Assembly: GCA_024741835.1 (NCBI GenBank)
Contig: JAENRP010000260.1
Location: 1-64,000, forward strand
DNA: 64,000 nt
Origin: Diplocarpon mali
Lineage: Eukaryota > Ascomycota > Leotiomycetes > Helotiales > Drepanopezizaceae
Direction of reading: 5' to 3'
Shown: one piece after another, positions 12,402-51,469 of the stretch
How positions within the stretch are numbered: position 1 is the first letter of the stretch
How the letters are laid out: every line of letters begins with the position of its first letter
Notes under the pieces: generated by a model
Told to the model about the DNA's origin: nothing
Seen by the model: the letters and a program-made list of their open reading frames with translations, nothing else
The model's database searches: none
Translations under genes and position numbers: made by a program

Positions 12402-15400
12402 ACCTACAGGCCGGGCCTAGGAGTTAGAAAACGAAATCAGCAAAATAAACAAATAAGCTATAGAATTGTAAAAATAATTAAAATAGAACTAACTTAGGTA
12501 TTAGTTTTCCTTAGTTCTCTTTAAAGGATAGGGAGAACTATTACTAGATAATACTCTCTTCGCCGAATGACCACTTCTTCTTATAGCATTACTATTAATA
12601 TCTAACGAGATAGGTCTTAGTATAGCAGGAGCTTTAATGGTTTAGGCAGATGCTAGTATGCTTTAGCGGCTTCTACTAATAGGGAGAGAGACTTGTATAG
12701 TAGCATTATTATTATTATTATCGTTATTATCCTTAAGGGAATTGTCAGTAATAGAGGAGGGGGAGGTAGGAGATTCTACGGATACTACCTCCTTAGCCTT
12801 GCCCTTTGCCAAATCAAGTTGCAGGCTAGGCCCAGGAGTTGTATTAAGGGTTTTTATATAAGGCTTCTTAGTGCTATACTTCTTAAGAAGTATCGTTTTA
12901 TCAATTAGGTTATTAGCTTTAATATTATCATCTGTATCTTTGGTCTTTGTCTAAGACTTATCGCTATATAACTATAGCTCTAGTTGTTAAACTAGCTTTT
13001 AAGTACTAGTAAAATCTTTAAAAAGTTCTTATTTATGCTTCTTTAGATATGCTATCAATTAAGACACATCTTTTATAAACAAATCCTTTATAGTCATTAC
13101 TACTAATAGGTTATTCTATAATCGTCTTCCTATAAGAGCGTCTAATAGTAGACTACCTTTTGTTATATTAAGTGTTATATAAAACTTGGCTAAGGATTCT
13201 TTAGTAATACTTTATCTCGCTATGCTTGGTTTCTTTATACAGATGGAATTGATAATAAATTCTTTTAAGTTAGCGCTATTCTTAAGTGATTTATTACTAA
13301 CAACTTTTATATAGTTATTACTAATAGCAAGAAAACCACCCTTTCTAGGTTCTCTATTAGAGTCTAAGTTAACGAAGGTGCCTTATCTTATAAATACTAA
13401 GAATAGAGTAGTCTTATTAGAAATATACTCCTTTAGAATTGTTCTATCCTTAGTGTTTAATTCTTTCTATTAAGCTGCGCTTTATACTAGATTTAGCGAG
13501 ATTTATTAAGAGTTCTTAAGACGATAGGGTATAAGTGTAAATGACTTATAGGACTTTTCCTATATAGTAAATTCTCTAGTCGATTGTTTAGCAGTAGAAA
13601 TTATATAATAGTCAATAGTTCTACTATTAGGAGAATTGACTCGCAAGCTAGGCCTAGGAGTCAATCTTACGAATCTTAAGTTAGCGTTAATCTTAATAGA
13701 AACAATTCGCAAATGGTAGTTAATACTTATAAACTATATAGGCTTAGGATACGCTACTAGCTTATATGAAGAATTATGACAAGTTAATAGAGCACTAAGA
13801 TATAAACTATGGTATATCCTTAAGGTTTGCTATATTAAGCTATGAGTTATATTATAGAGAAAGGTGGAAGGAGGGGAAGGCCTTTTATTAGAAGTCCAGA
13901 AATGATATCGGTACATTTATAGCTCTTCTTATACTAATGTTAAAAAGGAATTCTTTCTACGGTTACTAGTACTATACGTGCGTATAGTGCTTAAGAAGGC
14001 ATAATTTAATAACTTAGGCATCTTTAAGAAACCTTTAGTGCAAAGCGATATTAAGGTATCCTTAGTTAGTATAGTCTTATACTAGGCAGGGGCTTAAGCG
14101 ATATTATAGAACAATTTAAGGGCCTTAAGTGCTACTTTGAACTTAGAGAAACCTAATGATATATCTTTTTTGATTTAGTTGGCCCTTCTATTGCTGGTAG
14201 CTACAATTATATAATTTCCTAGATATAATAAAAATAAGGTTAGGTCGGGAGCGGTATAAAATTTGTAGATATTAGACGATACATCTTTATTAGTAAGGCC
14301 TATTATTGCCAATCTATAGTACTGCGCATATTAGCATTTATAAAGAGTATAAAATTTTTCGAAACTAAAGTCTTTGAATATCCCTATTATAAATTTGCTT
14401 AGTTGTGTCTTTATCTCTAGTATTACCGCAATCTTAAATCTATTACTATATTAAAGTATTATCTTAATATTAAAGGAAACTTTATAGCACTCTATAGAGA
14501 TGATTGTTATACTATTTTCTGGCTTTTCTTTAAGGATATAGTAGGCGCCCTTCGATTTCTTATGCTTAATAAAGAAATGTATAATATTGTTTATAGAAAA
14601 TTCGTCTTATTATAGCTTTATAATTTGTTTAATAGCTCTTGCTATTGCCTCTTATGCTAATAAAACTTCTCCTTAACCTTCCTTTTTCAAACGCTTTATT
14701 ATTGACTTATAGAATTTCAGAACAAATTTTTACAGGTCTTTAGAAAAGGTCTATACGATATCGGATATATCCTTCTTAGTATTATTAAAAATTTCTATTA
14801 CGTTAGTAAAAGGGTTATTCTTTTCATTAATCAAATCATCTTTAGAGTTTATATTATTATATATGCTAACCTATAGGCCAGGCTTATAAGTTAACTTCTT
14901 TACTACTAATATTCTAAGTGTTCAGGGTATCTCTAAGGATAGTGAATCAAACTCGTCTAAGTCTAATGATTAGTGATCGCAATAGTTAGCTATTTGAGTT
15001 CTAAGTATTACTAGTACCTCTGGCTTAGGGATATCCTCCTTACGTAGTACTTCCACCTATAGGCTAGGCCTATAAGTCAATTCAAGCTCACTTGTTGATT
15101 CTACTGCTATTAGTAGTAACTTTGAGATAGCAGGCATGATAAATTCCCATCTTTCTATTTTATTATTAAAGTAGTTTATAGTATACTTAGCTAGATATAT
15201 TATCTTATCTTTTATAATAAGTAAACTATATTAAGACTATTGTAAGCTAAGGGTATTTAGAATAGTTTGATCTAGAAGTGCCAAATTATTATGCTATAAT
15301 AGAGTGTCTTTTATTATCTAAATGGCTAAGTGTATAATAGTACTTAAGAAACCTATAAATTTTCTGCCTTGCGCACTGTTTCCTTATAGCTTTTTTATGC

Positions 15401-16020
15401 CCTTTTGAATAGTGAAATGATTTAATACTTGTATAGCCTTTGCTATTAGTTAGTATATTTTAAAAATTTTGCTAAGCCCTCGCAGGGTGTTATTAGCGGT
15501 AATGTTAATTATAAAGTATATTTGAAAAAGTGTACTACAGGTGCTACTTATAAATTGCAATAATCTTTTTATATACTTATTTTTCTTATTTCGATTCTTC
15601 TAAAACAGATCGATTAAATTAGTATACTTTTGATATTCCTATAGAAATTTTTCATAGTCGATTCCCTTTGTTTTAAGCTTATTCTTAAGAAAATTATTAA
15701 AGTTTAAAAATCCTTCTTTAACTATAGAGATTCTGTAGTTTAATACTTTAATAGATAAGTTTAGGAATACTTATTATTCTATCTTACCTAACGTTCTATA
15801 GGTGCTTACTATATCTTCTAATAATCTTAGTAACTTGCCTTCTTATGAAAAGCCACCCTTTAATATTAGCTTATTGCTAGTGGTGTTTATTGACTTGCTA
15901 CTTGAGGTAATAATTGATATGCTCTTCTTAGGTGTAGCTTTCTTATTTGAGCTTAGTGGTGCTATGATAAATTAGTTGGTAGGAGGTAGCTCTAAATGAA
16001 GAGATGATTATTTAGGAAAG
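12402..16020 (-). pseudogene. ORF-Z of Gypsy-A: accessory protein, unknown family
   Basis: A frame of roughly 1,150-1,200 codons on the minus strand, downstream of ORF-Y and last before the 3' LTR. I do not recognise it. Landmarks from the N-terminal half include INITANNTLRGLSKI and AIQVLNHFTIQKGIKKL (about 15500-15330); these align with ORF-Y. The C-terminal part has an Asn-rich run made by ATT repeats (about 12704-12720), and a basic Arg/Lys-rich segment close to the end that could be nuclear-localising. Four 23-bp palindromes lie well inside it (12817, 13639, 14869, 15055) and one at its end (12402). Stops are frequent; the start codon is uncertain. No enzyme motif was found. Confidence 0.6.
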
Positions 16021-16439
16021 ATTAATAATATAAGAGGCCTATACTAGAAAAGATTAATAATAGAAAGATAATAGTAATTAGTACTAGTATTATAGGTCTA
16101 GTAGGGTTATAGAAAAAGTAAAAAAAAGTAAAATTGTAGTGCGAGGAGAGGCTTATTTATAGAGTTTGGAATCGCGCTAGTGTACAAAGGAAAAGTAGGC
16201 ATAAAGAGGCTAGGAGTAGGAATAAAAGTAGGGTATGACTTATACGAGGACCTATAATTGGTAAATGACAATTGTTAAAGGTAAGGATAATATTTCAAAG
16301 GTAAGCATTAGAAAGTTGCATATAAAGGAAATAATTAAAGGATAGATTATATAAAGAATGAAGTAAAGTAAAGAATATATATAGAATAGAATAATGAATA
16401 GAGAATAAAGAGGTACTAGTATATAGAAAGTAGATAATT

Positions 16440-19400
16440 CTAAAAAAATTCAACTTCTAATTCGCAATCTCTTTAAATGGTTTTCAAAGAGGAGGTAGAC
16501 TTGATTCTTTAGATTAAGTCGACTCAATTGTCAGTTCTATTATCACTTTAGAGTCTTCTTCTCTTATATTAGTTCTCATTTCTTAGCGATTTCTTAACTT
16601 TAGGGACCTCTCTTAAAGGATCTTTTATTAATACTCTTAGATTTAGTAACTAAGGTTCATCTGAACTATCTTAAAGGCTTAAGCTAGCTGAGTCTATCCT
16701 TACTTACGGGCTGGGCTTGCAAGTCAATCTTGGCGTTTTTAAGCTTAAAGGTAAAAATAGGGGATTAGTTCCTAAATTAGGGTCTAATACTATACTAGCG
16801 TCTTAGTTTGTCTCTTTTCCGAATTTTCTTATAATAATGCCTTTATCAATTAGTATATTAGGCTCTCGGATAATATTTACTTTATCGCGCTATCCTTAAG
16901 ACTTAAGTCTATAAAGAAGCGATTTAGTATTTATAACGTTCGTCTAAGCTTTAATAAAGGCGTTAAAGAGCTTCTAATTATATTTTATAAGGTGATTTTT
17001 TAATTTGTCTTTATTAAGAAGAAATAACTCTTATACTTCGATTATAACTGATAGATCCGTTTAAGAGCATTAACTAATAATAGCTTTAAAGAGGTTACTA
17101 TAGTTCTTAAGATGAAAAGCTGCTTTGAAAAGTGTAGTAGTTCTACTTGCGTTAATCTATTAAGGTATTAGAGGTTACTTTAAAGTAGAGATTAAAAAGA
17201 TAAAATCGGAGATTTAAGTCTCATTTTCTAAGGTATTCTTATCGCAGATAGCTATATAGTTGTTATAAAAGGCTATAAAACTACTAGTCCTATAAGAATT
17301 GTCCAAAAGCATTTTAAGAAGGTATCCCTATTTTATTATTATTATAATTGGATTGCTATTATTAATAATAGGTCGTAAGATCTCCTTTTGCTTTAATTTT
17401 GCAGTTATTCGAGCTAGTTGAGATTTTAAACTAAGTGCTTAAGAAGTCTATCGACTTATCTTCTTTATAAATAGAATAAGTTTCACATTCGACTAAGAGC
17501 CGACCTACCTATTAAGGCTTTTAAAAGCTGGCCCTTATCTAATTAGTAGGATCTGATAATCTAAGACTTACTTTTTAATAAAATTGACTTATAGGCCAGA
17601 ACTGCAAGTAAAAATCGGAATTTCTTTATTAGTAGTACTTATATCTCTCTTTATTAAAACGACTTGATTATAAAGACTAAGGCCAATCAATTAAGGAGGT
17701 TTAAGGTAGGCTATAAGCTAATAGGTTCCTTTACTTCTTGCTATTATAACTAAGAGGTAGAGTCTATAGTGCATTTGAAGGACTTATTAAGTAAGATTGA
17801 ATATTATATTATAAAGAAAATAAGAAGGTATAGAGGTTGCGCTATCTATAGGATAGAAGTGATAAAGATATATCTTTACTTCTTATCTTATAATAGAGAG
17901 GAATATACTTATAAAAGTACTATTATTAATAGTAAAATTATCGGTTAAGAAGCGGCATCTAAAGGGTTTAAATATCATAATTGACCCTTCTTCCTCTATT
18001 TCCTTTTGCTATTTATTACTTAATAATATCGATAAGAAGGAATTGTTCCATTTAATCGGCTCTAACGCTTTTAAGGCTTTAGGATCAGCCTTAAATTTTA
18101 TAGCATTTAAAGATACCTCTATTATTAATAGGTTGGATTTGCGTATCTTTAAAGAGATAAAGAATTGATTATTAAGGTAGATTAGAAAAAGATTAATATC
18201 TTCTACTATATAGAGAAGTTCGAAGTATTTAATAGTTTCGTTAATATCAAATTCTTTATAATTAAGACTATAGTAAACCGAAAGAGAGCAAATATAAAGG
18301 TCGTAAAGTCTTCTCCCTTCAATTCTTACGCTAGGAAGATATTATTAAAAGCGAGTCTTTATTATAAAGGATACCTAAATATTATATCGTTCTTTAAGCT
18401 TAAGGTTAAGAATAACCGATTGAAGTATATTACTATAATTATAAATGTCCTAATTAATAGATTCCTCTTCGCATTCTCTTTCTTATAAGATAAAATAGTC
18501 TCGCTTGGCATCTAAGAGACTAGGTTCTTAACTTTTATAATTATTAAAGAATTGAATAATATCTATAAGGGCGAACTCATTTAAGATAAGCTATTAAATC
18601 TATTTAATAGCTCTTCTAGTTATCTTTAAAGTAATAGGAATAGGGTCTTCTCTTATATTATCGTTTTTAAAATAGTTGTATATAAATATAAAGAAGTTAA
18701 GAACTAGCTCCTTTAAGTTATTAAAGAAGGAGTTTAAGCAAGTGCGCAATCCTTTGGTTTCAAATTGCAAATTAGCTAAGGTAATTATCAAATGATCTAT
18801 CCTTCTTAAAGGTTGAGCTAAAATGGGTTATTTAGCTAAAGGAGAGTCCTTTGAAAATTCTGAAAATTCTAAAGAGGCTACGCTAAGCGTTTAAGCAATT
18901 TATTTAGTAGCAGTTTCTAGAATTATTTTAGCAAAAGGCAAGTTAGGTTTAGTTTTAAAATTCTTATTTCTAACTCCTAGTCTAAGACTGCAAGTTAAAT
19001 TATATAGTTTAGCACTTATTATATCTTTAAGTTAAAAAGCGAATTTTAAAGCAGGCTTAATTATAAATAATCAATTCCCTTCTTTATTATTAAAGAAATC
19101 TTATTTAAACCTTAGCATAGGAGTCCAGTTCTCTTTTAAAATAAGCAAACTATAAGCAAAAGCGCAAAGCCTTAGTATATTAATAATAGTACTATTAGAT
19201 AGGGTAATATCTATAGCCTAATTTGATCTTTTTATAGCCTTATCAGCTGCTATAAGTATTGTATTAGATAAGCCTATAAATCTGCGATTGCGAATTCGAT
19301 TGCCTTAGAATTTTACTACTCCTTCTTAAATAATAAAGAAATTGAGAATCTGAATAGCTTTAGCTATAGGAGTGTTTTCCTTAAGAATTTTTAATAATAC

Positions 19401-20049: not shown

Positions 20050-23000
20050 ATCCTAAAAGATCTATATCTTAAATAATAAAGGAGGCGACCTTATTAAAAA
20101 TGTAAAAATAAGGATTAAAGGGAAATAGGACAATTAATAGACTAGGAAATTATTTAGTATTCCTATTTGCGTTCTTTAGATATTTTAAAAATAATGACTT
20201 AAGATTGTGATTTATTAAGTATTTTAATATTCTTTACTTATAAGTCTAGCTTATAGGTCAAGTTGGAAAAATCTTAGTCTTTATCTAAGGGTTTAAAGTT
20301 GCTTATATTACCGTCGGTTCTTATAGAAGATTCAAAGGTTGTATTAATTTCTAATTCGTCTTTTAAAGGGAATAAGGTCTAATTGCATTAATAAAAGCGC
20401 TTTAGTCGGTTAGCTGCAAAGGTTCCTTTAATATCGACTCTATTAAGTTCCTAAAGAGAATAGTATCCCTTTTCTTTTTACTTAAACTTAACCTTAAATA
20501 AACTAAGCTATCGATAGTCAAGTTTAGTATCTGCTAATATATTAATATTTCTTATAATATTATAGACTAGGACAAGATCATCTTTTCAAATAGGGTACGT
20601 TTTAAGTACTTTAGAAGCAGCCTATACTTCTTTAGCTTTTTCCTAATATTATTTCTTTTATAGAATGATTTCCTTTATATCTATATCTTAAAGCTTAAAT
20701 TATTAGTATCTTATCGCAAGCAAATCGGAACGGTTCTGAATTTAACTATAATCGAATAATCTTTATATAAGCTATTAGGATTTAAAAGGGAGCTATGCCT
20801 CTCTACTATAGATAAGGAAAAATGGTATAACTCTAGTCGGTTTATAAATTATCGTTTGATAAGTAAAGAGTATTTTATAAAAGTGTTTTATCTAATTCTT
20901 AAATCCTCTATAAGTAATTTTAAATAGCTTATTAAGAATATTATAATATCCTCGCTTTACTACTCTATTAGCTTTCGAGTTATACGCTGAGATTTAAACC
21001 CGTTTGATACTATATTTTCGCGAAAAAGCTTTAACTATTCCTTTATTTTTAAGGCCTCTATTAATAGTTAGTTTGCTAAAAAGTCTATAGCAATAGACTA
21101 CGTCTTCTTAAAGGAACCTTATAATAAATTCAAAGTTAGCAGATCTTAAAGGTCGTCCTTTAAGCCATTCTAATAGGTCTTCTTTTGCTAAAATAAAATA
21201 TATAATCCCATTTTCAATTATTAGTACTTATATAATATTAAGACTAACTTTATAAAAAAGGCCTAATGGCTAAGTTAGGTATAAGGGATTCTCTTTATAA
21301 TTAGGTTTTCATTTCTAATAGGAGATGCAACTTTTCATAAAGGCTTTGCAATCCTTAAAGGAACCCTTCTAAAAGAATTTCTTCGAAAGTCAGTAGTAGG
21401 TAGACTTAGCTCCTTAGTAGCCAGTTTCCTTATAAATATCTTAAATAGCCTTAGCCCTTAGTTTTTCATCATCTAAGCAGAGTTATATAAGGAATAAGTT
21501 ATCGCTCCTTTTAAATAATTATCTTTCTTATATTAGATAAATTAAAGCTTTAGCTTTGAATTTCTGAAAATCCTTAAAAGCAACTATCTTTAGTTATTTA
21601 AGTATGATTAAAAATTTCGCAATTTCTTTAAAGTCACTTAAGTAGTTAGGTAATAAAATTCTCTTATTTGACTCGCGGGCTAGGATCGGGAGTCGAGTCC
21701 CTTTAAGGCGATATATTAATAGATAACCAACTTTATTCTCTACTCACTTATCAATATCTATTTCATTTTCTTTAATTAAATTAAAGGGGTAAAGGCGAGT
21801 TCTTCTTAAAAAGCCGTCTATAGTAGTATTTTTCATTCTTAAAATGTATTTGACTTTAAAGTCTATTAGTCTTATTTAAGCAATCTATTTCATTAATAAA
21901 GCTTTAGGTAGGTCGCTTGCAGCTCTATTTAATTATTCTACTAGCACTTTAGCATTAGTTTCAAGGATGAAGTAAGTGCTATAGAAGTCGCTTCTTATCT
22001 TTTTTATTACTTTCAAGGCTCCTTTGCATTCCCATTTAATAGCATTATACTTTATCTTTACTAGATTCTAAAGACTACTTTTAAAGTAAGCTAAATGTCT
22101 TTTCTATTAGCTATCAGCTTATTAAAGGATAGCACCTTATCCGATTAAGCTTACGTTAATTATTAGTATAATTGGCCTAGCATCGGCTCTATAGTCTATT
22201 TTAATCAAATATAGCGCTTTAAGTAATGCTTACTTTAGTTATTTTATAGCCTTTATTTAAGGTTCCTCCTATTGAAACTCAGCCCCTTTTTAAAATAAGG
22301 CGTAAATAGGTGCTGCCTTTTTAGTAAAATCCTTAATTTAAATGCGATAGTATACTATAATATTAATAAATATACAAGCTTCTGCTATATTATTATACCT
22401 CTTCTATTTATCGATTTTAAGTACTTTAACCCTTTAAGGACTTTAACTATTAGAATTAATAATAAAACTAACAATTTCTATCGATAGAAGATAGTATTAT
22501 AACTTTGGACCAACTATTACTCTTGCCCTTTCGAATTATATAAGCACCTAGTTTAGGTTTTAAATATATTCTATTATAAATTGTTATATACTAAGGAGAA
22601 CTTCTTTATAATTATAGAATGATCTTAATCCTTTTACTCCTATATTATTTATATAAAGGAGCGTAATATTAGGTATATAATCTATTAATATCTTATAGAT
22701 TATATAGACAAATTAAGCAATTGAATTTATAGCCCCTTAAGGTAATCTGATTATCTAAAGTAGTTTAAGAGGGGTTTAAATTGCTATTATATCTCTTAAC
22801 TTAATATTAAAAATAAATTGGTTATATTTAAAGAAGAAGTCGATAAGAGAGCTATAAGTTAATCTTACAAATTTATTTAAGAACTTATCTATATTCAAAG
22901 GAATATTAGCGTCTTTAATAGTTACTTAGTTCATCTTTACTATTACTATTATTAATTTATAAGTTCCCTTCTCTTTCTTAGCAATTAAGAACTATTTGTT

Positions 23001-24160
23001 CTTATAAAGGCTATTATAGAACTTGAGAATACTTTGCTTTAGCCTATCTTTTAATATTTCGATTACCTTTTCTTAAAGAGCTTTAGGAACTCTAAATGTT
23101 TTCTCTTACTAAGCTTTATAAGGTATTATCTTAATCTTAATATAAGGCGTAACCTCTTCTTAAATCTGGCTAAGTTCCGTTTAATCAAAAGCTAAGGCGT
23201 CCTTTTGATTTATTAGGGTTTTATAAAGTAGTTTGCGTTCTTACTCTATTAAGTCATCTTTAATTTTTAGTATATTAAAACGTTCTTTTATTAGCCGATA
23301 TCCAATAGGTTTATTAGAAAATCTGCTTATAATAAACTTATCGAATTTGCTACCTGGCTTTAAAGGTCAAAGCTTCTTATCTTATTTAAACTAATTATCT
23401 AGTCCTTTAAGCTTTAAGCTATTAGAGATTCCCTAATCTATTAGTTATACTTTATTTACCTTGCTTTTATATATAGTTCGAATATTAGCTAGTACTATAC
23501 TTTTCTACTTCTTTCCTTTTTTATTAAATCTTATAAAACGGTTGGAATTTTCTTTTTTAAAAACAAATAAAAGATTTTCTAAGTTATTAATTCAAAGTGT
23601 ATAAATAGAAATATTATTAGTAATTTTATTATTTTTCACTTGCGAGTCTAGCTTATAAGTGGTTTTTAGGTTTTTTAAAATAATTAGTAAATTATTAAAA
23701 TTTGTAAAACGAACTCTCTTTTCTACTTTATTTTTCTTTTTTCTTAATTATTAAGCTAATAAAACGCCGATTATACTATTCTTTAAAATTCCAGATTTGA
23801 CTCCTAAGCTAGGACTGTAAGTTAAATCGCTATTATTTAAAATCGGCAAACTCACCTTCCTTTCGCTATAACTCTTTACTAAGTGCCTTCTTTTACTAGC
23901 ATTAAGCCTAGCCCTTATGCTAGCTAATCGTTTCTTAAAACCTTATTTTAGAATTCGGCTATATTTCTCGCGATAACCATTTATCCTTCTAAAGATCGAT
24001 CTATATTCTAAAGACTAGCTTTTATAAGACTATCTTTAAGATAGTTAAATATTAGCTGAGATTTTAAAATAAAGGGTATTTTTAAAAGAATATTATTTAA
24101 AGAATTCTTTATCATTAGAAAGTCGGTATAATTAACGATCCCTTTGACTTTAACCTTTAC
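20050..24160 (-). pseudogene. Gypsy-A pol: RT, RNase H and integrase, protease broken
   Basis: Minus-strand Ty3/gypsy pol. RT lies at about 23200-22500; its catalytic Asp pair reads Asn-Asn (codons complementary to 22644-22649, context LYINNIGVKG). RNase H and integrase follow toward 20050. The protease C-terminal part (IVNYTDFLMIKNSLN at about 24150-24100) abuts the miniature Gypsy at 24161. The protease active-site segment present in Gypsy-B (43136-43530, 395 bp) is missing here. Three palindromes lie within the RT-integrase and protease-RT parts (21671, 23638, 23800), and one at 20236 near the integrase end. Many stops. Confidence 0.75.
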
Positions 24161-24476: not shown

Positions 24477-25510
24477 TATGCCTTAACCAACTTAAGTAGC
24501 GGCCTCTGCTACTATTAGTAAAGAATATAAGACTTTTGCAAGTCGAGAATACTAATCCTTTTATAAGTATAAGGATTAATAGCTAAATTAGTAAAGAGGG
24601 AAGAAAGGAGAGAAGAGAAAGGGGATATTTTTTTTTTTTTTTTTTTTTTAATAAAGTGATTCGCAAGCTAGGACTATAAGTGGATTTTGGAAAAACTGAT
24701 AGAAGGAAAGGGAAAGAGGTAAAAGGGTGATTTAATAAATTAAAAATCTTCTTTTAAGTAAGATCACTCGCAGGCTAGGACTATAAGTTAAAAATTCGAA
24801 AACTAGCAAAGCTATTAAAGTATAAGTTAAAGAAAAATTAGAAACAATTTCAAGCGATCTTAAGGATATATGGCTTAACCAACTTAAGAGGCAACCCTAC
24901 CGAATAGGGTAAAAACAATTGAAAACCGCATTAGCCTTAAAGTGACTTAGGCAAGTTTGGAGGGTTTTAATAGGAAAGTTATCGAAAGGTTTAAAGTTGA
25001 TATATCTAAGTATTAAAATTGAAGAAGTTGGTGAAAAAGTCGAATTATCTAAAACTGTATTAGCGTATTTCCACTTGCAAGCTAGGCTTAGAAGTGGAAT
25101 TCCAGTTTCTATATAAAGCTTAATTAGCCTTTGCTAAGCGAGTATAAGAAGGTATAGAATAGCCAATAGGGGTATTGCAATTAAATGCAATAGAAGAAGG
25201 TTTACCCTATTTAAGATTAATTTTTAAAATAAGGTTTCTAAAACAAAAGGGGGCTTTTCTTAGCCTTTAGGACAATTCCTATTAGCTGTCGAAATAAGGG
25301 GTTTTTCAAAATCGTTTCTAAAGTAAGATTTCAAGTTCTATCGAATTGAATATTCGATACTATAAGTATTTAAGGTTGCTAATATAGCTAATTAAATATA
25401 TCTATTCTAAAAGGGCTAGAATTTAAAAAAATCGTACTATCGAAGCTGATAATTTAAGCTTTTTAAGCAAAGAAAAGGAATAGGGGTTTCAATTAAGAAG
25501 TCGAAAGGGA

Positions 25511-25732: not shown

Positions 25733-25823
25733 GTTAATCTCTTATCTGCGAACTAAGAGAATCAAAAGGAGAAGTTGTATAAAGACGAAATCTCAAAGGA
25801 ATCGTCCCTGCGTAGGTTATTAA

Positions 25824-30255: not shown

Positions 30256-30259
30256 ATTG

Positions 30260-30729
30260 ACTCTTAGGCCAGACCTATAAGTGGATTCCTTTAAAGAAAG
30301 TGCACTCTTTGCCCTAATATAATTAAGTAAGAATAGGGAGAATAAATGGACTTTTAAGCTAGGATTGCAAGTGAAATTTGCAAAAATAACTCTTAAGCTA
30401 GGACTATAAGTAGAATGTAATATATCCTTAAAGATGACTCTTAAGCTAGGATTATAAATGAATTTAATAGAAATAACTCTTAAGCTAAGACTGTAAGTAG
30501 ATTCTATAGATTCGCTAATAATAACTCTTAAGCTAGGATTATAAGTGAAATTCGTAGAAATGACTCTTAAGCTAGGACTGTAAGTAAAATTCGCAAATTC
30601 GTTAGAAATAACTCCTAAGCTAGGATTGCGAATAGATCTTACTATTTTTAAGAAATCGACTCTTAAGCTAAGATTGCAAGTAGATCTTACGGTTTTATTA
30701 AAAACGACTCCTAAGCTAGGCTTACAACT
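30260..30729 (+). repeat. In-frame array of ten 23-bp palindromes
   Basis: Copies start at 30260, 30350, 30389, 30437, 30476, 30524, 30563, 30611, 30659 and 30707. Spacings are 90, 39, 48, 39, 48, 39, 48, 48, 48, all divisible by three, and all starts share the gag frame. The intervening 16-25 bases differ. It lies between the protease region and integrase of Copia-B. A long open frame on the opposite strand (30226-30741, repeating a PSLRV-like segment) is produced by the array and is not evidence of a gene. Confidence 0.88.
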
Positions 30730-31371: not shown

Positions 31372-31375
31372 TTTC

Positions 31376-35419: not shown

Positions 35420-38400
35420 AAGATTTAACTTAAATTCGTAAGTCCTTTAAATGGTCTTTTCTAAGGGTGATAGGCTAGATTCTCTAAATTGCTTGACTCA
35501 ATTGTCAGTTCTATTATCACTTCGGAGTCTTCTTCTCTTGCGTTAGTTCTTACCTCTTAGCGATTTCTCTAATTTAGGTACCTCTATTAAAGGAACCTTT
35601 ATTTATACCCTTAGGTTTAGTAACTAAGGTTTATTCGAACTATCTTATAGGCTTAAGCTAGCTAAGTCTAACCTCACTCGCGGGCCGGGCTCGCGAGTTA
35701 GTCTTGGCGTTTCTGAGCTTAAGGGTAAAAATAGGGGATTAGTTCCTAAATTAGGGTCTAATATTATGCTAGAGTCTTGGTTCGTCTCTTTTCCGAATTT
35801 TCTTATAATAATGCCTTTATCAATTAGTATATTAGGCTCTTAGATAGCATTTACTTTATTATACTATTCCTAATACTTAAGTTTATAAAGAAGCGACTTA
35901 GTATTTATAATATTTGTCTAAGCTTTAATAAAGGCGTTGAAGAGCTTCTGATTATATTCTATAAGGTGGATTTTTAATTCGTCTTTATTAAGAAGAAATA
36001 ACTCCTATACTTCGATTATAACCGATAGATCCGTCTAAGAGCGTTAACTAATAATGGCTTTAAAGAGGCTATTATAGTTCTCAAGATGAAAAGCTACTTT
36101 AAAAGGTATAATAGTTCTACTTGCATTAATCTATTAAGGTACTAGAGGTTGCTTTAGAGCAAAGATTGAAAAGATAAAATCGGAGATTTGAGTCTCATTT
36201 TCTAAGGTGTTCTTATTAAGGACAGCTATATAATTGTTATAAAAGGTTATAAAACTATTAGTCTTATAAGAATTGTCTGAAAGCATTTTAAAAAGGTGTC
36301 CCTATTTTATTATTACTATAATTGGATTGCTATTATTAGTAATAAGTCGTAAGATCTCCTTTTGCTTTAACTTTATAGTTATTCAAGCTAGTTAAGATTT
36401 TAAATTAAGTGCTTAAGAAGTCTATCGACTTATCTTCTTTATAAATAAAGTGAGTTTTATAATCGATTAAGAGCCGACCTACCTATTAAGGCTTTTAAAA
36501 GCTGGCCCTTATCCAATTAATAAGATCTAATAATCTAAGACTTACTTTTTAATAAAATTGACTTGCGGACCAGGACTGCAAGTAAAAATCGGAATTTCTT
36601 TATTAATAGTACTTGCATCTCTCTTTATTAAAACGACTTAATTGTAAAGACTAAGGCCAATTAATTAAGGAGGTTTAGGGTAGGCTATAAGCTGATAGGC
36701 TCTTCCACTTTTCGCTATTATAGCTAAGAGGTAGAGTCTATAATGCATTTGAAGGACTTATTAAATAAGGCTGAATATTATATTATAGAGAAAATAAGAA
36801 GGTATAGAGGTCGTATTATCTATAAGGCGGAAGTGATAAAGGTATATCTCTACTTCTTATCTTATAATAGAGAGGAATATACTTGTAAAAGCACTATTAT
36901 CGGTAGTAAAATTATCGGTTAAGAAGCGGCATCCGAAGGGTTTAAGCATTATAATTGACCCTTCTTCCTTTATTTCCTCTTGCTATTTATTACTTAATAA
37001 TATCGAAAAGAAAGAATTGTTCCATTTAATCGGCTTTAACACCTTTAAGGCTTTAGGATTAGCCTTGAATTTTATAGCACTTAAAGATGCCTTTATTATT
37101 AATAGGTTAGATTTGCATATCTTTAAAGAGATAAAGAACTAATTATTAAAGTAGATTAGAAAAAGATCGATATCTTCTACTATATAGAGAAGTTCAAGGT
37201 ATTTAATAGTTTTATTAATATTAAATCCTTTATAATTGAGACTATAATAAACCGAAAGAGAGCGAATATAAAGGTCGCAAAGTCTTCTCCCTTTGATTCC
37301 TACGCTAAGAAGATACTATCGAAAGCGAGTCTTTATTACAAAGGATACTTAAATATCATATTATTCTCTAAGCTTAAGGTTAAGAATGACCGATTAAGGC
37401 ATATTGCTATAATTATAAATATCTTAATTAATAGATTCCTCTTTGCATTCTTTTTCTCATAAGATAAAATAGTCTCGCTTAGCATCTAAGAGATTAGGTT
37501 CTTAACTTTTATAATTATTAAAGAATTGAATAATATCTATAAAGGCAAACTCGTCTAAGATAAGCTATTAAATCTATCTAACAGCTCTCTTAATTGTCTT
37601 TAAAGTAGTAGGAATAAGGTCTTCCCTTATATTATTATTTCTAAAACGGTTATATATAAATATAAAGAAGTTAAGAACTAGCTCCTTTAAGTTATTAAAG
37701 AAGGAGTCTAAGCAAGCGCACAATCCTTTAATTTTAAATTGCAAATTAGCTAAAGTAGCTATTAAACGATCTATCCTTTTTAAAGGTCGAGCTAAAATAG
37801 GTCGTTTAATTAGAAGAAAGTCCTTTGAAGATTCCGAAAATTCTAAAGAGGCTGCGCTAAGCGTTTAGGCAGTTTATTTAATAGCAGTTTTTAAAATCAT
37901 TTTAATAAAAGGTAGGTTAGGTCCAGTTTTAAAATTCTTATTTCTGACTCTTAGTCTAGGACTGCGAGTCAAATCATATGGTTTAGCACTTATTATATCT
38001 TTAGGTTAAGAAGCGAATTTTAAGGTAGGCTTGACTATAAATAACCAATTCCCTTTTTTATTATTAAAGAAATCTTATCTAAACCCTATTATAGGAGTTT
38101 AGTTCTTTTTTAAAATAAGTAAACTATAAGCAGAAGCGCAGAGCCTTAGCATATTAATAATAGTGCTATTAGGTAGAGTAATATCTATAGCCTAATTTGA
38201 TCTTTTTATAGCCTTATCAGCTGCTATAAGTACTGCATTAAATAGGCCTATAAATCTGCAATTACGAATTCGATTGCCTTGGAATTTTACTACTCCTTTT
38301 TGAATAATAAAGAAATTAAGAATCTGAATAGCTTTAGCAGTAGGAGTGTTTTCCTTAAGAATTTTTAATAATACTTATCTTCTATTATTAGAATTAATAT

Positions 38401-39039: not shown

Positions 39040-42000
39040 TATCTTAAATAATAAAGGAGGCGTCCTTGCTGAAAATGTAAAAATAAGGATTAGAAGAAGG
39101 TAGGACAATTGATAAGCTAGGAAATCGTTTAGTATTTTAGTCTATATTCTTTAGATATTTTAAGAATAATGACTTAGGGTTGCAATTAGTTAGGTATTTT
39201 AATATTCTTTATTTATAAGACCGGCTTATAGGTCAAGTTAGAAAAATCTTAGTCTTTATCTAAGGGTTTAAAATTACTTATATTGCCATTAGTTCTTATA
39301 AAGGATTCGGAGGTTGTATTAATTTCTAATTCGTCTTTTAAAGGGAATAAGGTCTGGTTGCATTAATAAAAGCGCTTTAGTCAGTTGGCTGTAAAGGTTC
39401 CTTTAATATCGACTCTATTAAGTTCTTAAAGAGAATAGTATCCCTTTTCTTTCTATTTAGATTTAACCTTAAATAGATTAAGCTATTGATAATTAAGTTT
39501 AGTATCTGCTAATATATTAATACTTTTTATAATATTATAGACTAGGATAAGATTATCTTTTTAAATAGGGTGCGTTTTAAGTACTTTAGAAGCAGCTTAC
39601 GCTTCTTTAGCTTTTTCCTAATATTGTTTCTTTTGTAGAATGATTTCCTTTATATCTATATCTTAGAGCTTAAGTTATTAGCATCTTATTATAAGTAAAT
39701 CGGAACGGTTCCGAATTTGACTATAGTCGAATAATCTTTAAATAAGCTATTAGGATTTAAAAGGGAGCTATGCCTCTTTACTATAGATAAGGAAGAATAG
39801 TATAACTCTAATTAGTTTATAGATTATCGTTTAATAAGTAAAGAGTATTTTATAAAAGCGTTTTATCTAATCCTTGAATCCTTTGCGAGTAACTTTAGAT
39901 AGACTATTAAGAATATTATAGTATCCTTATTCTACTACTTTATTAGCTTTCGAGTTATACGCTGAGATTTGAACCTATTTAATACTATATTTTCGCAAGA
40001 AAGCTTTAATTACTCCTTTGTTTTCAAGGCCTTTATTAATAGTTAATCTATTAAAAAGTCTATAGTAATAGACTACGTCTTCTTAAAGGAACTTTATAAT
40101 AGATTTAAAGTTAGCAGATCTTAAAGGTCGTCCTTTAAGCCATCTTAATAGGTCTTCCTTTACTAGAATAAAATATATTATCCTATTTTTAGTAGTTGGT
40201 ACTTATATAATATTAAAGCTGACTTTATAGAAAAGGCCTAATAGCTAGGTTAGGAATAAGGGATTTTCCTTATAACTAGGTTTTCGTTTTTAATAAGGGA
40301 CGCAACTCTTTATAAAAGCTTTATAGTCTTTAAAAGAGCCTTTTTAAAAGAATTTTCTTAAGAGTTAGTAGTAAGTGGACTTAGCTCCTTAGTGGCCAGT
40401 TTCCTTATAAATATCCTAAATAGCCTTAGCCCTTAGTTTTTCGTCGTTTAAGCAGAGTTATATAAGGAATAAGTTATTGCTCCTTTTAAATAATTGTCTT
40501 CTTTATATTAGATAAATTAAAGCTTTAGCTTTAAATTTCTAAAAATCCTTAAGAGCAACTGTCTTTAGTCGTTTAAGTATAATTAAAAACTTCGCGATTT
40601 CTTTAGAGTTACTTAAGTAGTTAGGTGATAAAATTCTCTTATTTGACTCGCGGGCTAGGCTCACAAGTCGAGTCCCTTTAAGGTAATATATTAATAGACA
40701 ACTAACTTCGTTTTCTACCTACTTATTAATATTTATTTCGTCTTCTTTAATCAAATCAGAGGGGTAGGGCCGAGTTCTTCTTAAAAGGCTATCGGCGGTA
40801 GTATTTTTTATTCTTAGAATGTATTTGACTTTAAAGTCTATTAGTTTTATCTAAGTAATCCATTTTATTAGCAAGGCTCTTAGTAAGTCGCTTATAGCTC
40901 TATTCAATTGTTCTACTAGCACTTTAACATCGGTTTTAAAAATGAAGTAAGTGCTGTAAAGGTCGCTTCTTATCTTTTTTATCGCCTTTAAGGCGCCTTT
41001 GTATTCCTATTTAATAGTATTATACTTTATCTTTACTAGATTCTAAAGACCACTTTTAAAGCGAGCTAGATATCTTTTCTACTAGCTATTAGCTTATTAA
41101 AGGATAGCACCCTATTTAATTAAACTTGCGTCAATTGTTAGTATAATTAGGCCAGCGTCGGCTCTATAGTCTATTTTAATTAAATAAGGTGCCTTAAGCA
41201 ACGCTTACTTCAGTTGTTTTATAGCCTTTATTTAAGGTTTCTCCTATTGAAACTCAGCCCCTTTCCGAAATAAGGAGTAAATAGGTACTGCCTTTTTAGC
41301 AAAATCCTTAATCCAAATGCAATAGTATACCATAACTCTAATGAACGCGCGAGCTTCTGCCATATTATTATACCTCTTCTATTTATCGATTTTAAGTACT
41401 TTAGCCCTTTAAGGACTTCGGCTATTAGAATTAGTAATAAAACTAATAATTTCCATTGATAGGAGATAGTATTATAACTTCGGACCAACTGTTACTCCTA
41501 CCCTTTTGAATTATATAAGCACTTAATCTAAGTTCTAAATGTATTCTATTATAAATTATCGTATGCTAAAGAGAACTTCTTTATAATTATAGAATGATCT
41601 TGATCCTTTTACTCTTATATCATTTATATAAGGGAGCGTAATATTAGGTATACAATCTATTAGTATCTTATAGATTACTTAAATAAATTAAGCGATCGAA
41701 TTTATAGCCCCTTAAGGTAATCTTATTATCTAAAGTAGCCTAAGAGGGGTTTGAATTACTATTATATCTCTTAATTTAATATTAAAAATGAATTGGTTAT
41801 ATCTAAAGAAGAAGTTAATAAGAGAGCTATAGGTTAATCCTACAAATTCATTTAAGAACTCATCCATATTTAAAAGAACATTAGCATTTTTAATAGTTAC
41901 TTGGTTCATCTCTACTACTACTATTATTAGTCTATAAGTTCCCTTTTCCTTCTTAGCAACTAGGAACTATTTATTCTTATAAGGGCTATTATAGAACTCG

Positions 42001-43530
42001 AGAATACCTTGCTTTAGCCTGTCCTTTAATATTTCGATTACCTTTTCTTAAAGAGCTTTAGGAACCTTAAATGTTTTCTCTTACCAGGCTTTATAAGGTA
42101 TTATCTTAATCTTAATATAAGGTGTGACCTCTTTTCGAATCTGGCCAAGTTCCGTTTAATTAAAAGCTAAAGCGTTCTTTCGATTTGTTAAGGTTTTATA
42201 AAGTAGTTTGCGTTCTTGCTCTATTAAGTCTTCTCCAATTTTCAGTATATTAAAACATTCTTTTATTAGTTAATATCCGATAGGTTTATTAGAAAATCTG
42301 CCTATAATAAACTTATCGAATTTGCCACCTGGCTTTAGAAGTCGAAGCTTCTTATCTTATTTAAACCAATTATCTAATCCTTTAGGCTTTAAGCTATTAG
42401 AGATTCCCTAATCCACTAATTGTACTTTATCGGCCTTACTTTTATATATAATTCGAATATTAGCTAGTACTATGCTTCTTTACTTCTTTCCTTTTTTATT
42501 AAATCTTATAAAACGATCCGAATTTTCCTTTTTAAAAACAATTAAAAGATTTTCTAAGTTATTAATTTAAAGTATATAAATGGAAATATTATTAGTAATT
42601 TTATTATTTTTCACTCGCAGGTCCAGCTTATAAGTGGTTTTTAGGTTTTTTAAAATAATTAGTAAATTATCGAAATTTATAAAACGAACTCTCTTCTCTA
42701 CTTTATTTTTCTTTTTTCTTAATTATTAAGCTAATAAAACGCCGATTATACCATTTTTTAAAATTCTAGATTTGACTCTTAGTCTAAAACCGCGAGTCAA
42801 ATTACTATTATTCAAAATCGATAAACTTACCTTTCTTTTGCCATAACTCCTCGCTAGGTGCCTTCCTTTACTAGTATTAAGCCTAGCCCTTATACTAGCT
42901 AATCGTTTTTTAAAACCTTATTTTAAAATTCGGCTATATCTCTTATAATAACCATTTATCCTTTTAAAGATCGATTTATATTCTAAAGGCTAGCTTTTAT
43001 AAGCCTATCTTTAAAATAGTTAAATATTAGCTGAGATTCTAAAATGAAGGGCATTTTTAAAAGAATATCGTTTAAAGAATTCTCTATTATTAGAAAGTCA
43101 GTGTAATTAACGATTCCTCTAACTCTAACCTTTATGTTTTTTACTTATTTATTAAAATTGTATTTCGATCTAGAGATAGTTGAATAAATAAGGAGTCGAT
43201 TGCTAACAATTGTCAATTGAGCCATTTCCGCCACTTTTCTAATTATTATATTAACTTCTGAACTATAATTAATCAAAGCCTTTGCTTTAACTAATTCTTC
43301 TATTAAACAAATAATAATAGGGCTTTTTATCGCAACTGCTAAACAATTTCAATTAATATTCTAAGATATTAAAGCTATTACTATGATATTATAGTACCTC
43401 TAGGTTCCTTTGTTTTCTATAATCTAAAGATATTTAATTAAGGCTAAGTGCTTCTTAGAGTTCTTTTACATTATAATTTCCATTTCCTTATTATTATTCA
43501 AATCTTTAAAAGCAACTGGGATATGCTTTC
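39040..43530 (-). pseudogene. Gypsy-B pol: protease, RT, RNase H and integrase, dead
   Basis: Protease: active-site segment reads ALINYSSEVNII, with the catalytic Asp changed to Asn (codon complementary to 43268-43270). RT at about 42100-41560: QGILEFYNSPYKNKQFLVAK and TLRFI-like landmarks, with the catalytic pair Asn-Asp (complement of 41619-41624, context PYINDIRVKG). RNase H near 41500-41230. Integrase: HHCC-type zinc segment near 40480-40320 (ETGH, then C and C), and a core region after it. Palindromes at 39221, 40646, 42613 and 42775. The type matches a common fungal Ty3/gypsy clade. In-frame stops are frequent. Confidence 0.8.
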
Positions 43531-45520
43531 CTAGCACTTTATTAAAGCGTCTAATTAAACTAAATAGGTCTTTGAACGTAAGGTTAATTTGCTAAGCTAT
43601 GATATTCTCTATAGCTTTCTCTATTGCAATTGAACTAGTATATTTATTAATGAATTTTTCCTATTTTAATATCTGTCTCTTTCGCTTAGGGTTAAAGGTC
43701 TGCGTAATAACTTTAACTTCTTGATTTTTAAGCTTAAAGTTATCTTCGTCTATTATATCTTTAATCAATTTGTCTATTATATTGGCTTTATCCTTATCTA
43801 TTGCAATTCTAGATTATTAGGTGTCTTTTAGCGTCTGGACTTTATATTAAGATTCCTAAGTTGCATATGCTGATTTCTAGACTTTAGCTGGTTTTATTAG
43901 TATTAGTAGAGTGGAAGATTTAAAAGGACGCTAAGAATTCCAAGGGTTCTTAAATATAGAAGTAGCATTAATATCAGCTGAAATATTATTATTAACCTAT
44001 CTTAAGATAGAGATGCCTTTAACTTCTATAGCTATTTGATTAAAAGCTAGGTCCTTAAGAACTCCCTTAAGTAGATTGCTAGTTGGACCTATATATATAT
44101 AAGTTGGGATTTTAGCATTTATATTTATAATACGCTATCGTTCGACCAAATTCTTATCTTATTTCATACTATATATTATCGTTCGAATAGTCTATAATTA
44201 TAAGCAATTCTAGTGCTTTTTAATAGGGATAGCTTTTGGCCTAGGATCCCTAATGCAAAGTATCTTATACTTATTAATATATATGACCCTAGTATTAATA
44301 AAATAAAGGAAAAGAGGGTAATTGTTGCAATACTTATATAAAGTGCAGTTGGGTTCTTTATTATTATAAAAGTTGCAGGTTAGTTGTTTTCTATTGCCGT
44401 TTCCTTAGTACTCTATAGTATTGATATTAGCAGAATGCTAGTTAGGATCAATTCCTCCTTCTTTAGCTAGCTATTGCGTTCTTATATTAGCTAGTTGTTC
44501 TAAATAATAAGAAGCAGAAGTCTAATAATAGGAACTATTAAGTTGGCTTATAGTAGCTGAGTTTTATCTATTACTAAACTAAGGAATATGCTGTTTTTCT
44601 TATAAGAGATTATTAATCCTAGTTTCTAAGCTCTAGATTTAGAGTTTTGCAAATTGGGTCTTAAGTTCTTTAATTCTAAGGTTGGATCTCACTCCTAGGT
44701 CGGGCCTACGAGTAAAAGGTATGACTACTAGGTTCTTTTTTACCTCTTCTATGACTTCCAAAGCTTTCGAGTGTTCTTGGACCAGGCTCTTGAGGTCTTT
44801 AGTATAGGAGGGAGTAGGGGCTTTTTCCTACTCTATAGCATTAATAGTTCTTTTATTAAGATCTGATTTTAAAGCAAAGGCCGAGAATTCCTTAAATAAG
44901 GCAAAGGTTATAAGGTCTTACTTATCGATCCTAAAATGCTTAATAATCTTATTTCAAAGGCTAGTAGGTAATTTAAGTAAGAAAAGGCAGCCTCTTTTAA
45001 CTTTATTAAGTATTTTCTAATTGATTAAAGTGTTTGATATATAAGTAAAAGTCTGATAGTAGTTTTTAAGTTCCTTAGGAGTATAAGTGATTAGAATAAA
45101 TTCCTTTAAGAAAGCCAAGGTGTTGCAAATCTACTATCTATTAAATTCTCGGAATTCAGACTTAAGAGCCTTAATAAGGAGTTCCTATAAACTATGCGTT
45201 TTCCATTTGAGGAGGGATTTGATAATATCTTTACTTATATAGTTATAGTAGTAAAGAAGTTAAGAAATCATATCTTCTTATATAATACTAAAATCGTAAT
45301 AAGTTTCCTTATATTACTTAAGGAAATTAGTAATATTAGCACTTATGAAGTAAGGAGCGCTAAGGGAACTAAGGAAGGGAAAGTGACTAATAATAGCCTT
45401 AAATATGGCTATTATTGTTTTATATTAACCGTCTAAGTTGATAAAATCCATAGGAGGCAAAGGGAAAGCTTTAATATCGCAAGATTGATTGCTAAGAGGA
45501 GTACTTTAAAATTCAAAAGG
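43531..45520 (-). pseudogene. Gypsy-B gag, dead
   Basis: Equivalent to the Gypsy-A gag at 26142-28110, with the same Cys-rich zinc-binding segment (near 44380-44320, here partly lost) and one palindrome (44691). It is directly upstream of the protease on the minus strand. The plus-strand open frame at 45194-45436 is a shadow of it. Confidence 0.75.
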
Positions 45521-46394
45521 GCTTAAAGAGCATTTAAAATCCAAGTTAATCTTAGAGTGATTAAGACAAGTTTGAAAAGATTTAAATAAAGGGTTAGTGA
45601 AAAGTTTAAAATTATTATTATTATTAGTATTTTCAAGCGTTGATATTAAAAAAGTAAATAGTAGTCCTAAGTTATTTAAAGATGTCTTTTTATCCTTTTA
45701 CTTATAAGCTAGGCTTAGGAGTAGAATTCCAGATTCTACTAAAAGTTTAATCTGAGTTTGCTAAAAGATTTTAAGTAGGTATTAAATAACTAATAGGAGC
45801 GTTGCAATTAATTATAATAAGATAAGGTTTACCTAATCTAAGACTAATTTCTAAGATAAGATTTATATTTAAGATTTTTTTTAGCCTTTAAGCCAATTCC
45901 TATTAGTCTTTAGAATAAAGGGGTCTTTAGAGACGATTTTAAGGCAATTTTTAGAGTTCTATTAAGCTAAGGCAGCTAAATTATCAGATTCGGATTTCTA
46001 AAGATTCTAAGGAGGCATTTCCTATTAGAGTTTGCGCTTAGTATTACTTAAGTACTTGAAACTACTGCTATTTGAGATTGCTATTATAAGGTTTGTTAAA
46101 TTTTTTATATTAAAAAGCCGAAAATTCCGAGAATCTCAGAGTTAAGGAAGAAAATAGGGGTTTTCGGAGTAGAGCTGAAAAGGGAAAATCTAAGGTTATT
46201 AATAGTTGCTAAATGAAAATCGATAGTTCTAAGTAACTAGGCAATTAAGGATAAGGGTTTTAAAGTTAATTAAAATGCTATAAGTGTTTCGAAGATGTAT
46301 TTCAAAGGCTAGTCTCTTATTTATAAACTAAGAGATTAATAAGGTTATATAAGGACGGAAATCTCAAGAAATCGGTCCTTGCGTAGGTCACTAA
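45521..46394 (-). other. Gypsy-B leader (5' untranslated region)
   Basis: About 870 bp between gag and the 5' LTR with no coding frame seen. It matches 50354-51223 (Gypsy-A) and, more distantly, 24840-25823 (miniature Gypsy). A palindrome lies at 45700. The sequence next to the LTR (minus strand TTAGTGACCTACGCAAGG) is conserved, but I could not assign a tRNA primer. Confidence 0.65.
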
Positions 46395-49850: not shown

Positions 49851-49861
49851 GCTTAAGGACG

Positions 49862-50014
49862 ACTCCTAGGCCCGCCTTGCGAGTTAGGTTATATAGTCTT
49901 ATAAAGGAAAGTTTTTCTTTAAATCGACTCTTAAGCCTAGATCGCAAGTTAAGTCACATAGTCTTATAAAGGAACGCTTTTGGGAAATTTGACTCCTAGT
50001 CCTACCTTGCGAGT
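49862..50014 (+). repeat. Three 23-bp palindromes in Copia-B3 3' region
   Basis: Starts at 49862, 49927 and 49992 (spacings 65 and 65, not multiples of three), the counterparts of those in Copia-B1 and B5. Confidence 0.8.
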
Positions 50015-50153
50015 AGAATTTAATGATTTCAATAGAGGTTGCTATTAATTAATTGTTTTTAATTTAAAAAAATACCTAGGAGTTAAATTAGCGCAAAAGG
50101 ATAGTTATTATTTTCCCAACTATAGGTCAATCAGAGTAAGGTCTAAGTAAGGG

Positions 50154-50348
50154 TATTAAAATAGGTAATATAGCTATTACTCTAATATATTATTATATAA
50201 CCCTACTGCTTAATCAATAGGATATTAATACATATATAGCTATAAGGAAGAAAGGGGTAACCTTCCTTCCTTAACTCTTACTAATATATCGACTATCGAC
50301 CTTTAGAAGTTTCCTTAACCTACTGCGCCGACTTACTTAAGCTCAATA
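50154..50348 (+). repeat. Copia-B3 3' LTR, 195 bp
   Basis: TATTAAAATAGGTAAT to CTCAATA, preceded by a purine tract (TAAGTAAGGG) and followed by TTAAT, the target duplication matching 28134-28138. Confidence 0.9.
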
Positions 50349-51469
50349 TTAATAAACATTTAAAATCTGAGTCAATCTTAGAGTAACTAGGACAGGTTTG
50401 AAAAGATTCAGATAAAGGGTTAGTGAAAAGTTTAAAATTATTATTATTTTTAATATTTTCAAGCGTTAATATTGAAAAAGTAGATAGTAGTTTTAAGTTA
50501 TTTAAGGATATCTTTTTATCCTCTTACTTATAGGCTAGGCTTAAGAGTAGAATTCCGAATTTTATTAAAAGTTTAATCCGAGTTTGCTAAGAGATTCTAA
50601 GTAGGTATTAAACAGCTAATAGAAGCGTTATAACTAATTGCAATAAGATAAGGTTTACCTAATTAAAGACCAATTTCTAAAATAAGGTTTATATCTAAGA
50701 TTCTTCTTAGCCTCTAGGCCAATTCCTATTAGTCCTTAAAATAAAGGGGTCTCTAGAGACGATTCTAGGGCAAATTTTAAAGTTCTATTAAGCTGAGGTA
50801 GCTGAATTATTAAATTCGGATTTCTAAAGATTCTAAAGAGGCACTTTTAATTAGAGTTTACGCTTGGTATTACTTAAGTACTTAAAACTACTGCTATTTA
50901 AGATTGCTATTATAGGGTTTGCTAAACTTTTCATACTAAAAAGCTAAAAATTCCGAAAATCTCAAAGTTAAGGAAGAAAATAGGGGTTTTTATAGCAGAG
51001 CCGAAAAGGGAAAATCTAAAGTTATTAATAGTTGCTAAACGAAAATCGATAGTTTTAAATAACTAAGCGATTAAGGATAGGGTTTTTAGAGTTAATCAAA
51101 ATGCTATAAGTATTTCAAAGATGTATTTTTCGAAAGGCCAGTCTCTTATCTACAAACTAAGAGATCGATAAGGTTATATAAGAACGGAAATCTTAAGAAA
51201 TCGGTCCTTGCGTAGGTCACTAATATAAAACAGAAGGGAGATAATACAAGAATAGGCCTAAGGGAAGACTTAAAAACAAAAGGAAGAAGCACTACAAGCG
51301 GGCTCTCTTAGATAAGATATTAGGAACAAGTCCTAAGTATAGGGTATATTCAGTACTATAGCGACACGCGCTCTCTCTATATACAGAAGATGCCCTTTTT
51401 ATCCTCCTATCGGCCCTGCCCTATCATATGACTTTTGTCACGTGATTCATCCATTCCCAGGTCTCTACA
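50349..51469 (-). mobile_element. Gypsy-A right arm: leader and 5' LTR
   Basis: Gypsy-A resumes after Copia-B3. 50354-51223 match the Gypsy-B leader (45537-46394), with one palindrome at 50526. The 5' LTR follows at 51224-51469. No coding sequence. Confidence 0.88.
51224..51469 (-). repeat. Gypsy-A 5' LTR, 246 bp
   Basis: TATAAAACAGAAGG to GGTCTCTACA on the + strand, then TTAG, repeated at 11953-11956. It holds two 8-bp palindromes, TCATATGA (51424-51431) and TCACGTGA (51438-51445). Confidence 0.88.

Follow-up and report, generated by a model that had tools for sequence, protein, structure and literature searches.

A palindromic unit in Diplocarpon mali retrotransposons

A 64-kb stretch of the Diplocarpon mali genome (GenBank assembly GCA_024741835.1, contig JAENRP010000260.1, positions 1 to 64,000 of the forward strand; hereafter the window) contains decayed long terminal repeat (LTR) retrotransposon DNA in which a short palindromic unit with a 23-bp core recurs. 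Across the sequence examined, the carriers of the unit are one Gypsy element, two Copia lineages and one long, weakly typed Ty3-like element, which bears out the proposal, made in an earlier sequence-only reading of the window, that unrelated retrotransposon families have the palindrome in common. Using a motif that tolerates C-to-T and G-to-A decay by scoring transitions cheaply, we found 46 unit copies in the window (score of 6 or less) and none in 40 dinucleotide-preserving shuffles of it, so the equal frequency in shuffled sequence that this reading had considered does not apply. The copies are indeed many, but the figure of at least 50 given there is reached only by counting weaker copies, and many copies described as GC-rich are no longer so after decay. 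The copy that had been singled out as the best, at 35676..35698 in copy 2 of the long element (the Gypsy-A/B of the sequence-only reading), was confirmed, with 11-bp arms that contain one mismatch.

Structure and conservation of the unit

Comparison of flanks sorted 242 copies in the examined sequence into 30 site groups, or 29 once one group was recognized as the array neighbour of another. Three more groups resemble neighbours or diverged copies (two in a Copia linker or one array, and one in L033, which has the same 186-bp spacing as the window pair 14869/15055), and we count about 26 independent positions among the examined sequences. Between the 29 groups (406 pairs) the 23-mer is 71% identical and the adjacent 6+6 bp are 44% identical, and the flank 8–30 bp out is at 28%, which is background; ordinary homology between the elements, the other alternative raised in the sequence-only reading, was rejected on these values. 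The constant length of 23 bp reported there holds for the core, but conservation extends a further 6 bp to either side, which makes the conserved sequence about 35 bp long, with a looser outer part. Outward from each core end the consensus runs N-R-A-W-T-Y, its second base being a purine at 60 of 60 flank ends (30 site groups), and the unit as a whole reads RAWTYN-ACTC(S)YRGKCC-N-GGMCYR(S)GAGT-NRAWTY. The unit is indivisible in the examined sequence: 195 of 196 half-sites lie within a full unit, and Markov control sequence contains 0–4 half-sites.

The arms are palindromic, but most copies are quasi-palindromes. The pair formed by positions 5 and 19 is C-C or G-G in 17 of the 29 groups and, among the strict copies (not mutually independent), in 46 of 50; G-C accounts for 7 groups and 4 strict copies, and C-G never occurs. 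The typical unit therefore has two differing arms and an internal mismatch. Column variability is mirror-symmetric around the centre (r = 0.91) and not codon-like, with a mean entropy of 0.66 at third codon positions versus 0.50 and 0.64 at the others, and it is therefore the DNA or RNA, not a peptide, that is or once was under conservation. RNA hairpins of −12.7 to −16 kcal/mol are predicted for three 23-nt forms of the unit; pairing between both flanks of one site showed no excess over re-paired flanks.

Host retrotransposons and reading frames

Where the elements are less decayed, the units fall within open frames. In the Gypsy element (L026), two units lie upstream of the reverse transcriptase (RT), preceded by a piece that we take to be protease-like (Pfam gave no match), and one lies between RNase H and the integrase zinc-binding domain, all in frame 0. 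Copia L028 has two units between the SH3 domain and RT, also in frame 0, and the linker units of both elements read T-(P/R)-G-P-G-P-(R/Q)-V. The long element occupies a large part of the range 12402..50548 given in the sequence-only reading. A pol piece of this element (L017), which by its motifs presumably belongs to the RNase H–integrase region (Pfam gave no domain), carries a unit that reads TRLASLARESS in frame 1. Three Copia homologues from elsewhere are without the peptide; a structure search with the linker piece gave no solved-structure match, and an RNA family search with part of one element gave no known family.

Pfam searches over ten decayed pieces of the long element and neighbouring elements found no domain above the cut-off, and the one match from a protein search with a Gypsy piece was set aside. 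The RT-like piece of the long element, for which the L025 Gypsy gave no alignment, matched Ty3-type reverse transcriptases weakly (best E 0.014); the L026 linker likewise gave no alignment with the unit-bearing pol piece of the long element. The Copia in the window (48.3–49.7 kb), at 26–28% protein identity to L028, represents a different lineage.

The 5/19 pair also gives the orientation of a unit. Read by eye on one strand of the long element, with decay allowed for, it is G-G at 13639/32610 and C-C at 18973/37947; on the sense strand of pol, it is C-C in the units of L026 and L028, and an array at 30260–30681 in the window is G-G on the strand of its open frame. Units occur in both orientations and in two reading frames. 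Within 1.5 kb of RT, units were present at 1 of 6 Gypsy and 5 of 6 Copia loci, and the Gypsy at 58202–60709, which has similarity to RT, RNase H and integrase, contains none in its span (the nearest is at 61185), consistent with the unit-free Gypsy-C of the sequence-only reading. Units are therefore common but not universal in these retrotransposons.

Abundance and genomic setting

The assembly containing the window comprises 49,369,952 bases in 676 contigs. The genome-wide pattern search proposed in the sequence-only reading was run and gave 260 exact matches to ACTCSYRGGCCNGGCCYRSGAGT and, for the slightly wider pattern ACTCSYRGGYCNGRCCYRSGAGT, 1035 places at no more than one mismatch; reversed patterns had no match in the same search. 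The full 35-bp motif with no mismatch allowed occurs at just 6 places, because unit and flanks are seldom both exact. No exact match to ACTCSYRGGCCNGGCCYRSGAGT was present in the GTDB prokaryote genome collection, and the single match in the IMG/VR virus collection, in a phage-like contig of 70% GC that has no repeats or further convincing unit, was taken as chance.

The units examined lie within LTR-retrotransposon DNA, the sole setting seen so far. Among twenty 10-kb stretches, a non-random sample in which 7 of 12 AT-rich stretches cover previously found places, units were present in none of 8 with GC above 0.48, and at least one was present in all 12 with GC below 0.37. The 1-kb stretches around 40 pattern places, drawn from the first listed of the 1035 with some skipped, had a GC content of 0.28–0.47, a few of them being near the genome mean. 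For D. coronariae that mean is given as about 44%, and the genome as about 20% Copia, 6% Ty3 and 0.3% DNA transposons (PMC11527701). A host-gene open reading frame (ORF) from L005, a stretch rich in GC, matches a D. coronariae protein at 100% identity over 98%, followed by D. rosae at 91%; the source is therefore D. coronariae, an apple leaf-blotch pathogen, or a very close relative. The dinucleotide indices TpA/ApT and (CpA+TpG)/(ApC+GpT) are 1.43 and 0.60 in the window, 1.40 and 0.62 in ten AT-rich stretches, and 0.74 and 1.22 in eight GC-rich stretches; by the usual thresholds, the window and the AT-rich stretches carry a signature like that of repeat-induced point mutation (RIP), strong in the window. 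COX1 had no match in the whole assembly, which seemingly does not include the mitochondrial genome.

Arrays and copy-number variation

Spacings between neighbouring units, counted over copies many of which share ancestry, are without exception multiples of 3 in L026-type and Copia ORF linkers (36 cases: 45, 48, 54, 66 and 72) and in the array of the 175-amino-acid (aa) frame (50 cases: 39, 48, 87 and 90; these four values also make up the window array at 30260..30681, where every spacing is divisible by 3). The array that lies 3′ of the Copia RNase H has a single such spacing among 12 (61, 62, 64, 65 and 66). An untyped array has three spacings of 54, and one spacing of 107 links two different groups. 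Arrays of 45 bp are present in Copia and Gypsy linkers alike, and the number of units in arrays looks as if it varied by tandem duplication of unit and spacer together.

Copies of one family differ in the number of units in the coding linker, from 1 to 3 in Copia and by 45-nt steps in Gypsy, which makes this number a ready marker of element history. The Copia linker copies (L031, L074–L077 and others) are also divided by a 3-bp indel downstream.

Origin of the unit

We consider, with a probability of about 55%, that the palindrome is the core of a non-autonomous, quasi-palindromic mobile mini-element of about 35 bp that resides within LTR retrotransposons. The sequence-only reading had named two possibilities, a tiny hairpin element and a shared functional signal, and these remain the proper alternatives; the evidence tips towards the element because the unit is indivisible, sits in unrelated hosts at unrelated positions in both orientations and varies mirror-symmetrically, although its mobility is something that we infer.

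Such a unit, ready-made, would have entered LTR retrotransposons at about 26 unrelated positions and in either orientation. Frame-breaking insertions would have been lost, those in ORFs surviving at linkers that tolerate an in-frame peptide, and surviving founders would have been amplified passively along with the host retrotransposon, multiplied locally by tandem duplication (the 45-bp and similar arrays) and decayed by RIP-like mutation. The weakest step is the route of entry. The one that we favour, a guess that we hold to be doubtful, is insertion at the RNA/cDNA stage, in which reverse transcriptase would switch template onto a short hairpin RNA at RAWTY microhomology; a switch of this kind would yield conserved junctions on both sides, no target duplication and an apparent confinement to retrotransposons. 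Tentatively, and at well under an even chance, the unit may exemplify a new, ultra-short class of nuclear mobile element, a hairpin of about 35 nt that parasitises LTR retrotransposons, passes from one family to another, unrelated one as they are reverse-transcribed, and leaves peptides in frame in their polyproteins.

A number of observations count against a mobile element. Empty sites and target duplications, for which the sequence-only reading had suggested a search, were sought and neither was found. With joined-flank queries, all 19 junction-spanning matches to the L026 linker are occupied as judged by length (36 other matches being one-sided), and so are all 40 listed copies of the 35676 site (39 at +23 and 1 at +24). 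Among the full-span matches listed for a 130-aa linker query, judged by length with partial matches excluded, 57 of 59 have the query length, 2 are longer by 45 nt and none is shorter; the Copia linkers (20 fetched and 5 more) contain one unit in 1 case, two in 22 and three in 2. Exact direct repeats of at least 2 bp abut the unit in none of the 30 site groups, our searches found no source element or mobilising enzyme, and covariation at other arm position pairs is no greater than chance. A peptide-level role would likewise predict the predominance of frame 0, which holds for three of four pol linkers read. Copies outside retrotransposons, which the sequence-only reading had proposed to look for, were sampled in GC-rich DNA totalling about 80 kb and at 40 places; no copy was seen in host genes there, and this weighs against mobility because a freely mobile DNA element might leave such copies. 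If the founders already carried units, all tested copies of a family would be occupied, and it is because full occupancy fits this founder model and a needed signal equally that our confidence goes no higher than the figure given above.

Several further candidates for empty sites or duplications were set aside. An automatic empty-site scan of the examined sequence was noisy and no clean empty site was counted, since the short-gap matches that it listed traced to flanks of low complexity and to neighbouring units in arrays. Repeats in the window that are related to LTRs were rejected as empty sites, not being homologous near the unit. A scan of 125 combinations for an offset target duplication (29 groups) peaked at z ~3.6 with no consistent offset, and was not counted.

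Full occupancy at the tested sites is also what would be seen if the unit were a shared functional cis-signal, that is, a binding site or an RNA or DNA hairpin needed or exploited by retrotransposons (in transcription, packaging or strand transfer), or a host mark, gained by convergence or exchange. Dyad symmetry with both halves conserved and the predicted stability of the three 23-nt hairpins (−12.7 to −16 kcal/mol) agree with such a role, which we nevertheless regard as unlikely: the two window copies of the long element contain 10 and 11 units, several sites lie in ORFs in two reading frames, solo half-sites are nearly absent, the arms usually mismatch, and 5 of 6 Gypsy and 1 of 6 Copia loci have no units around RT. 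A single origin in one retrotransposon, followed by copying into co-packaged unrelated ones through template switching or gene conversion, would make the unit a by-product of recombination. Exchange of this sort would leave sharing that reaches farther into the flanks, but past about 7 bp identity is no higher than background, and with about 26 positions to explain we think it rather improbable, even though units are so far confined to retrotransposon-type DNA, the AT-rich junctions are conserved and 45-bp arrays are shared by Copia and Gypsy linkers.

Selection of the peptide T-(P/R)-G-P-G-(P/L)-R-V, with the DNA palindrome as a codon artefact, would fit the prevalence of frame 0 (3 of 4 pol linkers read) and the linker spacings in multiples of 3. 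This cause is disfavoured, to the point of being very improbable, by the mirror symmetry of column variability (r 0.91) and by third codon positions that are barely more variable than the others (0.66 against 0.50 and 0.64); the long element, moreover, uses another frame, and units also lie 3′ of the Copia RNase H and in an LTR-like repeat. Chance or composition was rejected on the 40 shuffles without a unit and the reversed pattern without a match. Together with ordinary homology among elements, which the unrelated flanks contradict, it retains a practically negligible probability, although copies in these repetitive regions were amplified with their hosts and copy number overstates the number of events.

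Relation to known palindromic elements

Miniature inverted-repeat transposable elements (MITEs) are short and non-autonomous and have an inverted-repeat structure. The mobile mini-element that we favour would share these traits, but it is far shorter and no target duplication was found. Unlike repetitive extragenic palindromes (REP), which are extragenic, several units lie in ORFs. Rickettsia palindromic elements (RPE) are described as palindromic repeats of about 150 bp with many in-frame insertions in unrelated protein-coding genes (PMC10969869). Like RPE, the unit is palindromic, is repeated at unrelated places and stands in frame within retrotransposon ORF linkers, presumably by insertion; unlike these longer elements of bacterial metabolic genes, it is 23–35 bp long, fungal and located in retrotransposons. 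The GC clusters of yeast mitochondria (GC42) are described as short, scattered, GC-rich palindromic units that are argued to be mobile, mostly intergenic and flanked by AG or ACT direct repeats (PMC4478555). The unit resembles them and the mitochondrial PstI palindromes as a GC-rich palindrome in AT-rich surroundings, but differs from GC clusters in having no direct repeat at its ends, and the units examined lie in LTR retrotransposons, partly in ORFs. Short palindromic repeats in the organelle DNA of Volvox carteri have an affinity for selfish elements (organelle introns), their nuclear copies having been judged inert organelle transfers (PMC2670323); the unit likewise favours other selfish elements, but is embedded in LTR retrotransposons. 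By analogy, it seems to work most like RPE and mitochondrial GC clusters while belonging to neither, because length and host differ from those of RPE and the end repeats of GC clusters are absent.

Should the unit be mobile, we would know of no shorter mobile-like unit from a nuclear genome; it would parasitise elements that are themselves parasites, and would be a eukaryotic counterpart of the palindromes that stand in frame in Rickettsia genes. With about a thousand copies that can be dated by their carrier families, how tiny palindromes move becomes testable across strains and sister species. An exact-term search of titles and abstract beginnings in the open-access literature gave no report of a nuclear-retrotransposon unit of this kind among the matches listed, and in the main text of the paper on the D. 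coronariae genome no word starts with 'palindrom' (PMC11527701).

Positions of the units in the window

Copies are present throughout the range 12402..50548 to which the sequence-only reading had assigned them, but also outside it: in a two-unit array at 8144..8228 (spacing 62, not a multiple of 3, with a weaker third unit at 8271), in a decayed two-unit array at 11823..11932 (units at 11823 and 11910, spacing 87, with a weaker unit at 11733) and in a three-unit array placed by the motif scan at 61185..61333 (spacings 65 and 61). In copy 1 of the long element, the motif scan placed units at 12402..12424, 13639..13661, 14869..14891, 15055..15077, 17587..17609 and 23800..23822, and a further unit, at 18973..18995, has the orientation opposite to that at 13639. 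The unit at 12817..12839 reads NTTPGPSLQLD in an open minus-strand frame, that at 16702..16724 is the counterpart of 35676, and that at 21671..21693 lies in a pol piece homologous to the L017 piece that reads TRLASLARESS in frame 1. In copy 2, units were placed by the same scan at 31376..31398, 31788..31810, 32610..32632, 33840..33862, 34026..34048, 36561..36583, 37947..37969 and 42613..42635; the units at 40646..40668 and 42775..42797 are the counterparts of 21671 and 23800, respectively.

The motif scan also placed a well-preserved unit at 44691..44713, which shares its site group with the unit at 27302..27324. The units at 45700..45722 and 50526..50548 are counterparts in the first and second copies of an LTR-like repeat pair, 4826 bp apart, and a three-unit array at 49862..50014 (spacings 65 and 65) lies 3′ of a Copia-like RNase H match (49408–49734). 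In the miniature Gypsy of the sequence-only reading, the scan found units at 24659..24681, 24766..24788 and 25073..25095; near them, at 25521–25736, is a 73-bp repeat in three tandem copies (86% matches). The eight-unit array at 30260..30681 (units at 30260, 30350, 30389, 30476, 30524, 30563, 30611 and 30659) falls within an open frame of 175 aa on the minus strand (30229–30753) that consists mostly of units. Its TTG-started form, of 171 aa, is the only ORF of at least 120 aa listed in the 64-kb window.

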